Below, piece after piece: positions 25,835 through 40,982 of a stretch of 64,000 nucleotides of DNA. Source of the DNA: Chromatiales bacterium (GTDB lineage: Bacteria > Pseudomonadota > Gammaproteobacteria > JAGRGH01). The stretch is from the NCBI GenBank assembly GCA_020445605.1, contig JAGRGH010000049.1, forward strand, positions 248,001 through 312,000, read 5' to 3'. Every line of letters begins with the position of its first letter. Position 1 is the stretch's first letter. The notes beneath the pieces were generated by a model that ran no database searches, had not been told where the DNA came from, and worked only from the letters and a program-made list of their open reading frames with translations. The translations under genes were made by a program, and so were the position numbers.

Positions 25835-26209
25835 CTATCCTTTCGGAGCGCCAAAACGCTTCGTGTAATGACGTGCGAACAGGGTCTCAAGTGCGGTGAT
25901 CACATCGGCGCCATCGCGCCCCTGCAGCATGTGCTCGCTCATCAGGGCGGAGGCCTCGTGCAGCAGATCGTCGGTATTCAGCATGGTGTAGTCGCCTGAC
26001 AGCCTGCGCATCGCGCCCACGACGGTTTCGGATTCAGGCCGAGGGGTGAGCACCGGAACAGCGGACGCCACTTCTGCATTGGCCTGACGACGCCCGGCCA
26101 GAACCTCGACGAGCGCGAGCACGGTTTCCTGATCACGCGCGTCCAGGTCCGCGAACAGTTTGAGCAGACGGCGTTGAAGGCCGCCCGTGATCGCCGGATT
26201 CGCAATCAA
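25835..26209 (-). CDS. Unknown protein coupled to LysR gene
   Basis: I do not recognise this 124-residue protein. It is mostly helical and acidic: GGLQRRLLKLFADLDARDQETVLALVEVLAGRR at the N-terminus (split for length), then a Pro/Thr/Ser-rich linker, then GDYTMLNTDDLLHEASALMSEHML and ALETLFARHYTKRFG. The only sensible start is TTG at 26209, overlapping the LysR stop as TTGA, so translation is probably coupled. Without coupling, TTG would be weak, suggesting low stoichiometry. No membrane segment or signal peptide is visible. Confidence 0.7.
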   Translation of the reverse strand: MIANPAITGGLQRRLLKLFADLDARDQETVLALVEVLAGRRQANAEVASAVPVLTPRPESETVVGAMRRLSGDYTMLNTDDLLHEASALMSEHMLQGRDGADVITALETLFARHYTKRFGAPKG

Positions 26210-27120
26210 ACGCTGGGTTCTACTGTCTCGGTGCAATAGTCGCGCGCGAACTCGAGCAATTCTTCCATTACCCGGTGGCGGAATTTCTGCTTCTGGCGCA
26301 CGAACGAGAATGGTCGTTCCAGCGGCGGATCCAGCGCAATTGCCCGCAGGGTGCCCAGCTGTAGCTCTTTTGCAATTGTGGTCTTGGAGATGATCGAAAG
26401 CCCCATGCCGGCTTCGACCGCACCCTTGACGGCCTCGGGACTGCCGAGTTCCATGCTGATCTTGATCGCGCTTTCGTCGCATCCGCCCGCGGTGCGCAGG
26501 TATTCCGCAATCACCTCGCGCGTGCCCGAACCTTCCTCGCGGCAGATGAACGGAAACGTCGTCATGCGTTCCACGCTCACGCTGCCGGCACTCGCGAGCG
26601 GATGATCCGGATCGACCACAACGACCAGTTCGTCGATCCGGCACACCTCGACGTCGAGATTCTTGTTCGCGACCGGTGCTTCTACAACGCCGAGATCGAT
26701 GGTGTTGTTCTCCACCATCTGCACAATGCCGTCGGTATTCGAGACCTTCAGATGTATCTCGACGTCCGGGTAACGCTTTTTGAAATCGCCAAGCAGCGAC
26801 GGCAGCATGTATTCAGCCACCGTCGTGCTCGCACCCAGCAGCAGCGCGCCGCTGACATCACCCGTGACCTCCTTGACGGCGTTCTCCATCTGCGCGTAGA
26901 GATCGAAGATGCGATCGGCGTACTCATAGACCCGCCGGCCGGCATCCGTAAGGGAGATGCGGTTATGCGTACGATCGAACAGTCGGGTGTTGAACTGTTC
27001 TTCGAGCTGACGAACCTGAAACGTGACCGCGGGCTGCGTCATGTGCAGCGCCTCGGCGGCCTTCGTGAAGCTCAGCAGCTTCGCGACCGTGAAAAACACC
27101 TGTAGACGACGATCGGCCAT
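26206..27120 (-). CDS. LysR-family transcriptional regulator
   Basis: A 304-residue regulator with an N-terminal winged HTH (SFTKAAEALHMTQPAVTFQVRQLEEQFNTRLFDRT) and a C-terminal periplasmic-binding-like effector domain (GASTTVAEYMLPSLLGDF, NNTIDLGVVEAP, EEGSGTREVIAEYL). These segments resemble CysB/CbbR-type members and the LysR genes often found beside DsrE-type genes in sulfur oxidisers. It lies downstream of dsrE and tusA but has its own strong promoter. The shared -10 motif at the tusA promoter makes those genes likely targets; this is inference. Confidence 0.93.
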   Translation of the reverse strand: MADRRLQVFFTVAKLLSFTKAAEALHMTQPAVTFQVRQLEEQFNTRLFDRTHNRISLTDAGRRVYEYADRIFDLYAQMENAVKEVTGDVSGALLLGASTTVAEYMLPSLLGDFKKRYPDVEIHLKVSNTDGIVQMVENNTIDLGVVEAPVANKNLDVEVCRIDELVVVVDPDHPLASAGSVSVERMTTFPFICREEGSGTREVIAEYLRTAGGCDESAIKISMELGSPEAVKGAVEAGMGLSIISKTTIAKELQLGTLRAIALDPPLERPFSFVRQKQKFRHRVMEELLEFARDYCTETVEPSV

Positions 27121-27184
27121 GGTGGTTCTGGTCTCATGTCCCGGCGTGAGCGAAAAAAACGCGACGCGCTTGAGAGGCGGTTCT

Positions 27185-27213
27185 TATATACAGAAATAAA
27201 TTTCTTATGCCAA
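27185..27213 (-). promoter_or_regulatory. Sigma-70-type promoter of the lysR gene with repeated TTCTTAT
   Basis: On the minus strand TTGGCA (27208-27213, five of six) and TATATA (27185-27190) are separated by exactly 17 bp. TTCTTAT (plus strand) occurs at 27181-27187 and 27202-27208, 21 bp or two helical turns apart, covering the space between the boxes. This suits autoregulation by the LysR protein. Confidence 0.6.
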
Positions 27214-27218
27214 CCGGC

Positions 27219-27255
27219 AAAAAAAACCCGCGGACCGGAACCGGACCACGGGTTT
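27219..27255 (-). terminator. Intrinsic terminator after the dsrE gene
   Basis: On the minus strand a stem starting AAACCCG and ending CGGGTTT, with an inner GGTCCGG/CCGGTCC helix, is followed by a run of eight T. It lies just after the DsrE stop and separates it from the lysR promoter. This is the clearest intrinsic terminator in the window. Confidence 0.85.
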
Positions 27256-27261
27256 GTTCGT

Positions 27262-27744
27262 TCAGATGTACAGGCAGATGTCCGATTCGCCGGCAAACTC
27301 GAAGAACGTCGCGGCACCACCAAACTCGAGCCCGTCGATGAAATCCTTGTGATCGAAGTCGAACAGATCGACCGTCATCTGGCAGGCGATCAGCTTGACC
27401 TCGGCCTCCTGACACAGTTCGCGCAACTCTTCGACGCTCGCCACACCCTTGGCCTTCATCTTGTTCTTCATCATGAAGGTCATCATGCTCTGCATGCCGG
27501 GCAGTGCGGTCAATGCAACCGGGAACCACTTGTCCATTGCCAGCGGCATGGGCATTCCGGGATTGCCGAGCGGCGTCACCTGCAGGTCGAGCTTTTTGCG
27601 CACAAGCTGGAGCCCGTAGAAGGTGAAGAAGATCTGCGTGTCGTAGCCGAGCGCCGCGGCGGTCGACGCCAAAATGAACGGCGGATACGCCCAGTCGAGC
27701 GAACCCTTTGTAGCGATGATGGCCAAGCTCTTGGTATCGGACAT
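27262..27744 (-). CDS. DsrE/DsrF-like sulfur-transfer protein (DsrE2 type)
   Basis: A 160-residue protein with the DsrE-like fold: an N-terminal strand-loop KSLAIIATKGSLDWAYPPFILASTAA, a Met-rich middle segment (MMTFMMKNKMKAKG) and VKLIACQMTVDLFDF carrying C121, the conserved cysteine position, plus C111. Relatives encoded with TusA and rhodanese in sulfur oxidisers are thought to carry or anchor sulfur in the cytoplasm. The Met-rich hydrophobic stretch suggests membrane contact. It is 43 nt downstream of the TusA gene, forming a two-gene operon that ends at an intrinsic terminator. No rhodanese gene is present here. Confidence 0.88.
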   Translation of the reverse strand: MSDTKSLAIIATKGSLDWAYPPFILASTAAALGYDTQIFFTFYGLQLVRKKLDLQVTPLGNPGMPMPLAMDKWFPVALTALPGMQSMMTFMMKNKMKAKGVASVEELRELCQEAEVKLIACQMTVDLFDFDHKDFIDGLEFGGAATFFEFAGESDICLYI

Positions 27745-27787
27745 TTGCTTACCCTCCGGTTCCGGTCTCTGGTCGGACCGCGTTCAA

Positions 27788-28018
27788 TCAGGCCCGCTTG
27801 AGCAGGAACATGAACTTGCCGTCGGCCTCGCCGGACTTCAGCAGCGCATTGCCGGTCTGCTTCGCGAACGCCTCAAAGTCCTTGACCGAGCCCGGGTCCG
27901 TCGCGATCACGCGCAGCACCTGACCACTGGTCATGCCATTGAGGGTTTTCTTCGCACGCAGGATCGGCAGCGGGCAGTTCAGGCCGGTCGCGTCGAGTTC
28001 TTGATCGAAGTCAGACAT
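27788..28018 (-). CDS. tusA: TusA-family sulfur carrier protein
   Basis: A 76-residue protein with the two-layer sandwich pattern DQELDATGLNCPLPILRAKKTLNGM. C15 of the CPLP motif is the persulfide-carrying residue. Paired with a DsrE-type gene it probably belongs to the sulfur-oxidation kind of TusA rather than the tRNA-thiolation kind, though sequence alone cannot separate them. It is the first gene of the tusA-dsrE pair with a candidate promoter at 28098-28126. Confidence 0.93.
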   Translation of the reverse strand: MSDFDQELDATGLNCPLPILRAKKTLNGMTSGQVLRVIATDPGSVKDFEAFAKQTGNALLKSGEADGKFMFLLKRA

Positions 28019-28126: not shown

Positions 28127-28184
28127 TGCAATTGCGCGCTGGCGTACTGCCCGGCGATGCAACAACCGCTGGGCCGGGTTGAAT

Positions 28185-28274
28185 TGGCGGAGAGGGTGGG
28201 ATTTGAACCCACGAGGCCCGCAAGGGCCTGCCGGTTTTCAAGACCGGTGCATTCAACCGCTCTGCCACCTCTCC
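28185..28274 (-). tRNA. tRNA-Ser (UGA anticodon)
   Basis: A 90-nt class II tRNA on the minus strand. The acceptor GGAGAGG pairs with CCTCTCC, the anticodon loop CTTGAAA gives UGA, the long variable arm is GGCCCTTGCGGGCC-like, and the T-loop is GGGTTCAAATCCC. CCA is encoded. Discriminator is G. Confidence 0.97.
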
Positions 28275-28514
28275 GGGAACGTGCCCACCGATGATCAGCG
28301 CCGGCCTAGACCGATCCAGCGGAATCATCGGCTTACGCATGATTATGCCCAAACCACTGCAAGCGCGGGACCGATCGTGCCTGCCACGCGCCAGGCTCAT
28401 AGATCTGGCCCGAGCCACGACGGCTTGCATCCGTGACGCGCGCCCGCATAATACCCGAGCACAACCGTAGGTAGGATGGGTCCCGGTCGGGAACACCGCG
28501 AGTCCGCTGCGGTC

Positions 28515-28684
28515 TTAACAGGCTGTTGAAATTCTCCTTTCAACAGCCTGATGTCGCGCGACAGGGACGTCTCGCCCGAAAATCGAACATGCAAGTGTTT
28601 GATTTTCGTGAGCAACCGAAAACCGCGCTTTTCGGTTGCGACGTTGAAAAGGCCATGGATGGGCCTTTTTCAACAACCTGTTAA
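28515..28684. repeat. Family-2 multi-hairpin element with terminal inverted repeats
   Basis: A 170-bp element in the 447-bp space between tRNA-Ser and the Bax inhibitor-1 gene. Its ends, TTAACAGGCTGTTGAAA (28515-28531) and TTTCAACAACCTGTTAA (28668-28684), are inverted repeats with one mismatch in 17. Inside are four successive hairpins: 13 bp at 28519-28550, 13 bp at 28577-28608, 11 bp at 28612-28639, and 12 bp with a bulge at 28643-28674. Loops are 6-7 nt. It has no coding capacity, so it resembles a MITE. A related copy lies at 29686-29810. Confidence 0.85.
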
Positions 28685-29645: not shown

Positions 29646-29685
29646 TCGAGCGTCGCATTTGCGGCCTCAGCCCGGCTTTACGCGA

Positions 29686-31077
<1,392 letters not shown>

Positions 31078-40965: not shown

Positions 40966-40982
40966 TAACAGGCCGTTGAAAA
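40966..40982 (+). repeat. Solo end of a family-2 element
   Basis: TAACAGGCCGTTGAAAA at 40966-40982 matches the left terminal repeat of the 28515 element at all but one of 16 aligned positions. No further element sequence follows. It lies between the convergent trxB and ParA-like genes. Confidence 0.45.

Follow-up and report, generated by a model that had tools for sequence, protein, structure and literature searches.

The 64,000-nucleotide stretch of DNA analysed here (the window) carries between positions 28515 and 28684 a short element bounded by TTAACAGGCTGTTGAAA on the left and TTTCAACAACCTGTTAA on the right, as had been delimited in an earlier reading made from the letters alone (the sequence-only reading). 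The inverted repeats, described there as 17 bp long, are present, with a true repeat of 13 bp that is found at both ends in 54 copies: CAGGCTGTTGAAA at 28519-28531 on the + strand, and TTTCAACAACCTG, as read on the + strand, at 28668-28680 in the opposite orientation. The outermost TTAA on each side (28515-28518 and 28681-28684) corresponds to a duplicated target, according to the comparison of the outer 4-mers across those 54 copies. Inside this 4-bp duplication, folding and alignment of the copies define the element proper, copy 1, with 162 bp (28519-28680, + strand). The open reading frames that cross it are extensions of neighbouring frames, and it has no gene of its own.

The fold computed for copy 1 (-78.5 kcal/mol, z -8.5 against shuffled sequences) consists of five hairpins (A-E, all on the + strand), one more than previously described. 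Hairpin A (28519-28550) is formed by the inverted repeat facing its own inverted copy around a 6-nt loop, and hairpin B (28556-28575) has the loop ACAGGGACGU, with a GGA at 28565-28567 that constitutes a candidate CsrA/RsmA-type site. Hairpin C (28577-28608) is followed by hairpin D (28612-28639), with the loop CCGCGC, which is CCACGC in the second copy of the window, and by hairpin E (28643-28674), with the loop CAUGGAUG, a GGA at 28657-28659 and a 3' arm that overlaps the right inverted repeat.

The second copy, formerly placed at 29686-29810, is real and extends from 29681 to 29807 (+ strand); it starts at CGCGAGAC, lacks hairpin A and is adjoined at its right end by the target sequence TTAG (29808-29811). 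The stop codon of a serS-like gene (29797-29799) is supplied by the right end of this copy. The solo end proposed at 40966-40982 (+ strand) is a 16-mer with one mismatch and no hairpin array beside it, and may be a left-end remnant, an uncertain assignment. Upstream of the element, a LysR-type regulator and DsrE-like and TusA-like small proteins, named by eye from the translations of the open reading frames, are encoded in a row (26206-28018) that suggests a putative sulfur-metabolism locus. A match to the proteobacterial small RNA sX4 on the - strand (28142-28289), below threshold with 45.8 bits against a cut-off of 70, overlaps a tRNA gene (28188-28274).

Copies and target sites in the genome

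Far from being confined to the window, the core pattern was found at 63 places in the 3.36-Mb assembly, a lower bound for the copies present, and the reversed control gave 0 matches. The end motif was detected 206 times in the genome, against 4 for the reversed pattern, and a hidden Markov model applied to the stretches fetched around the search matches yielded 75 distinct matches, a number that includes partial ones. A search for the element in plasmids found none. The copies differ from one another by insertions and deletions and diverge from their consensus by 7% on average, the closest pair being 97% identical; the burst that produced them was therefore not very recent.

The left and right outer 4-mers are identical in 16 of the 54 two-ended copies, with 5.5 expected by permutation (p 1e-4, none of 10,000 permutations reaching 16). 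The outer Y and R of the motif YTAR each agree between left and right in 46 of 54 copies, and the adjacent positions agree at about chance level. The duplication of TTAA, one of those for which a test had been advised, exists at copy 1, the motif of the whole family being the 4-bp YTAR. As TAA or TAG is part of YTAR, many copies lie right beside a stop codon, and no called gene spans any copy in this genome. Dispersed, short and geneless, the element ends in inverted repeats and is flanked by a duplicated 4-bp YTAR, and is thus almost certainly a MITE, as had been proposed.

About 14 copies are devoid of hairpin A (among them L075, L097 and L102), a type to which the second copy of the window belongs, and start at or near CGCGAGAC, several of them immediately behind a YTAR-like site, such as L080, which has CTAG on both sides. 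Hairpin A is found alone between TTAA and TTAA in L116 (contig C24), and two hairpin A units surround hairpin B as an inverted pair in L110 (C32). Hairpin A thus comes and goes as a whole between YTAR-like repeats, in a way that looks like precise excision or palindrome slippage.

End types and related IS5-family elements

Complete IS5-family elements (NF033581, transpos_IS5_4) with matching ends were found in related carrier genomes, so that the full-length insertion sequence with the same ends, whose search had been advised, exists in relatives and was not found in this assembly. One of them, in genome G039 (L045/L180), has the structure CTAG-CAGGCTGTTGAAA...AATCAACAACCTG-CTAG, with class I ends, and an IS5-family element of G164 (L182) also has class I ends, with CTAA and TTAG flanks. 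Class II ends (GGAANCTCTGA) are present on IS5-family elements of G124, G303 and others, with CTAA or ATAA in L172 (G124) and L173. In L172, an IS5-family element (1326-2638) has inserted into the duplicated CTAA beside a hairpin element, which results in three copies of CTAA. None of the IS5-family insertion sequences that share these ends contains the hairpin array.

The core itself is combined with at least two end types across genomes, the two main ones being CAGGCTGTTGAAA and GGAANCTCTGA. In genomes other than that of the window, the 4-bp duplications are identical in 24 of 45 copies, with both end types, against 5.6 expected, and YTAR is the duplication motif of IS5 (PMC10359306).

No NF033581, DDE_5 or L045-like protein was found in this assembly (G000), which means that no autonomous IS5-type relative was detected in it; the missing partner could be hidden in contig gaps or could have been lost. 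For this reason an IS5-type mobilisation in this genome is inferred and not directly shown, although it is very probable. YTAR has also been associated with the IS701 family, a partner of this type being rejected as no DDE_5 protein was found in this genome. Two IS1182-like transposase fragments lie at contig ends (L056 and L064, at the starts of C50 and C51), one of them followed by a RelE-type toxin-antitoxin-like pair; IS1182 is their best NCBIfam family, with a score below its cut-off, and they probably represent a collapsed assembly repeat. They were not accepted as the partner because a relative (L070) has other ends (GAGGCTGTAGAAA).

Conservation of the fold and of two GGA loops

A first covariance model, built from 53 aligned copies of this genome, matched 54 of 369 genomes of the class and 42 of its 272 genera, nearly all at full length, and with a second, wider model members of the family were recovered from further classes of the phylum. 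In an alignment of 33 distinct sequences (A3), mostly one per genome, 96.7% of the cells are paired, compared to 66.5% after shuffling, and 54 of 58 base pairs show changes in both partners, a signal that is lost when the partner is slid. In a further alignment (A5) of 30 sequences from other classes, absent from the construction of the second model, 52 of 57 pairs covary. Both alignments were fitted to a model and hence lean to structure; the slid controls and the folding of single sequences serve as safeguards against this bias: four relatives folded without any model show the same fold (z -7.5 to -10.8), with hairpin A unformed in one of them. Selection on the fold is thus supported with little room for doubt, and the sequence-only reading was correct in this conclusion because the fold is kept by compensatory changes across many genera.

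The argument originally given, a single loop difference (CCGCGC or CCACGC) beside an intact stem, is too weak alone. Covariation within the genome was also rejected as weak evidence of structure, with 94.0% of the cells paired and 93.9% after shuffling. The private changes among the copies of this genome comprise 68 G-U and 70 A-C mismatches, without any RNA-strand bias, and single copies are therefore not visibly maintained as RNA; single insertions decay with no detectable RNA-strand constraint. Changes are fewer in stems than in loops (4.6% versus 11.1%, or 3.7% versus 5.0% when shared polymorphisms are excluded), and the GGA positions change in 5.0% of cases versus 9-16% at the other positions of loops B and E, a weak contrast. 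Selection on the fold is therefore seen between lineages, on those copies from which new ones arise, and not on each insertion.

The exact core pattern gave no match in named genomes, a search from which the genome of the window was perhaps excluded, and a looser hairpin-E pattern recovered 20 stretches, mostly from gammaproteobacterial metagenome-assembled genomes (Chromatiales, Sedimenticola, Acidiferrobacterales). The element was also observed in groundwater metagenome-assembled genomes labelled Desulfarculus and Nitrospirae (L245 and L246), which could reflect horizontal spread or a binning error. Tandem copies occur in L147 and L149, and in L147 two successive units seem to share a hairpin, which closes the first on the right and opens the second on the left.

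In the 80 copies analysed outside this genome, GGA is present in loop B of 75 and in loop E of 76, with both loops having it in 72, compared to 2 for loop C and 1 for loop D. GGA was part of the loops from which the models were built, and this slightly favours such matches. Most matches, however, score well above the cut-off, and loops C and D, although the seed sequences conserve them too, are more variable in other genomes, so that the contrast goes beyond model bias alone. Loop B has the CsrA/RsmA-type site CANGGANG in 63 of the 80 copies. Of these 80 copies, 55 have a loop D of the form AAYCRCRYUU and 53 have AAG at the end of loop C, and no known binding protein was matched to either.

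The consensus of CsrA/RsmA sites is RUACARGGAUGU or (A/U)CANGGANG(U/A), and in Pseudomonas putida a site CATGGATG is bound and required for repression (PMC6849547). The csrA gene is present in this genome. In the phylum sample, 48 of the 50 genomes that carry the element and 172 of the 349 that do not have csrA, an association confounded with phylogeny and not significant inside the class (p 0.22); the two carriers without csrA are incomplete assemblies (74% and 69%). Binding of CsrA by an RNA of the element has about an even chance. A literature search found no paper on the subject joining CsrA and MITEs.

No Rfam (15) family reached its gathering score, the best matches being ivy-DE (30.2 bits versus 41.4) and RsmW (30.5 versus 52), and RsmV also matched below threshold. 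The TwoAYGGAY RNA motif of Rfam has two loops of the form AYGGAY, as has the element; identity with it was rejected, since a scan of the carriers with Rfam at E values up to 10 gave no match. The family, absent from Rfam 15 as searched, can be annotated at once with covariance models like those used here.

Possible function of the folded core and relation to known systems

The reading that we prefer, to which a probability of roughly 0.5 is assigned as a whole, is that of a MITE with a conserved hairpin core that is moved by IS5 transposases and whose RNA binds CsrA. An IS5-family transposase acting in trans would recognise the terminal repeats and excise the element, which would be inserted at YTAR with duplication of the 4 bp. 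In this GC-rich genome, YTAR sites often coincide with TAA or TAG stop codons, so that insertions are placed at gene ends and do little harm. A transcript in the A-to-E direction would display the GGA hairpins B and E, most likely binding a CsrA/RsmA dimer, and the element would thereby distribute a CsrA-binding RNA among gene 3' ends or yield a small decoy RNA. More tentatively, a transposon family may have carried CsrA/RsmA-binding RNA into many genera of a single phylum, a selfish element thereby titrating or recruiting the global regulator of post-transcriptional control at numerous 3' ends, with the folded core keeping its identity while the ends were swapped between IS5 specificities.

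The same MITE might use its hairpins as DNA, in single-stranded or cruciform state, to aid the transposase or a replication-linked transposition, with the loops read by a DNA-binding protein, an explanation that we regard as improbable. The strand neutrality of the private mutations agrees with it, as do the two ends, each an inverted repeat facing its own inverted copy in two end classes, and the frequent loss of hairpin A exactly between YTAR-like repeats. However, the complete insertion sequences with shared ends have no array, and the transposase therefore seemingly needs none. Furthermore, G-U exceeds A-C mismatches across genomes (103 versus 51, and 54 versus 24, in model-based alignments that favour G-U), an excess that points to a function as RNA in the A-to-E direction.

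It is likewise unlikely, to a slightly greater degree, that the array works as a terminator of transcription or as an insulator, stopping transcripts from both sides and making insertions beside genes harmless, with no role of CsrA. Insertions do adjoin gene ends: the pairs of genes flanking the copies are convergent in 26 cases, tandem in 36 and divergent in 9, and the right-hand gene is directed towards the element in 52 of 73, according to gene calls made with a simple codon-usage script and not taken from an annotation. On the + strand, the GC stem of hairpin E precedes a T5 run, but this hairpin was not called by the terminator scan. The orientation bias of the flanking genes was not seen in other genomes, and the conservation of GGA in two loops and its near absence in the others would be left unexplained. 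Against the preferred reading, orientation relative to genes shows no preference for transcription of the GGA strand.

A family of CsrB/RsmY-like RNA genes captured and spread by IS5-type ends, with a few active copies and the rest dead, would fit the association of one core with at least two end types, the neutral decay of most copies and the sub-threshold matches to RsmW and RsmV, but neither a promoter-like site within the element in the scanned stretch nor an Rfam match at threshold was found, which makes this origin very improbable. A repeat of the REP/BIME type, mobilised by a RAYT (a tyrosine transposase acting on single strands), would likewise be intergenic, palindromic and present in many copies, and is considered extremely improbable in view of the 4-bp target duplications, which such repeats should not have, and of the matching IS5-family elements.

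Compared with known systems, the MITE considered here has in common with IS5-family insertion sequences the terminal repeats CAGGCTGTTGAAA or GGAANCTCTGA and the 4-bp YTAR duplications; those insertion sequences have a transposase gene and no hairpin array, whereas the element has the array and no gene. Correia elements, ERIC and the QMITEs of Coxiella are also short, non-coding, folded, present in many copies and moved in trans, and the QMITEs give rise to small RNAs (PMC10969869, PMC5896051). In the present family, the interior is kept by compensatory change across many genera. To our knowledge, which is not exhaustive, no interior conserved in this manner is known for Correia elements, ERIC or QMITEs. 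The interiors of MITEs are usually regarded as freely drifting filler, such repeats normally sharing their ends only; an interior whose fold is maintained in many genera and occurs together with different transposon ends must therefore serve the element or its host. The two CsrA-type loops offer a simple proposal, that of a mobile element plugging into the Csr/Rsm network or draining it, and, if this were true, a regulator whose tuning has so far been ascribed to a few dedicated small RNAs would gain a dispersed multi-copy input. With CsrB, RsmY, RsmZ and RsmW, the element shares hairpins whose loops contain GGA in the form CANGGANG, and it differs from all of them in having two GGA hairpins within a fixed fold of five, in being borne by a transposon and in being present in many copies.
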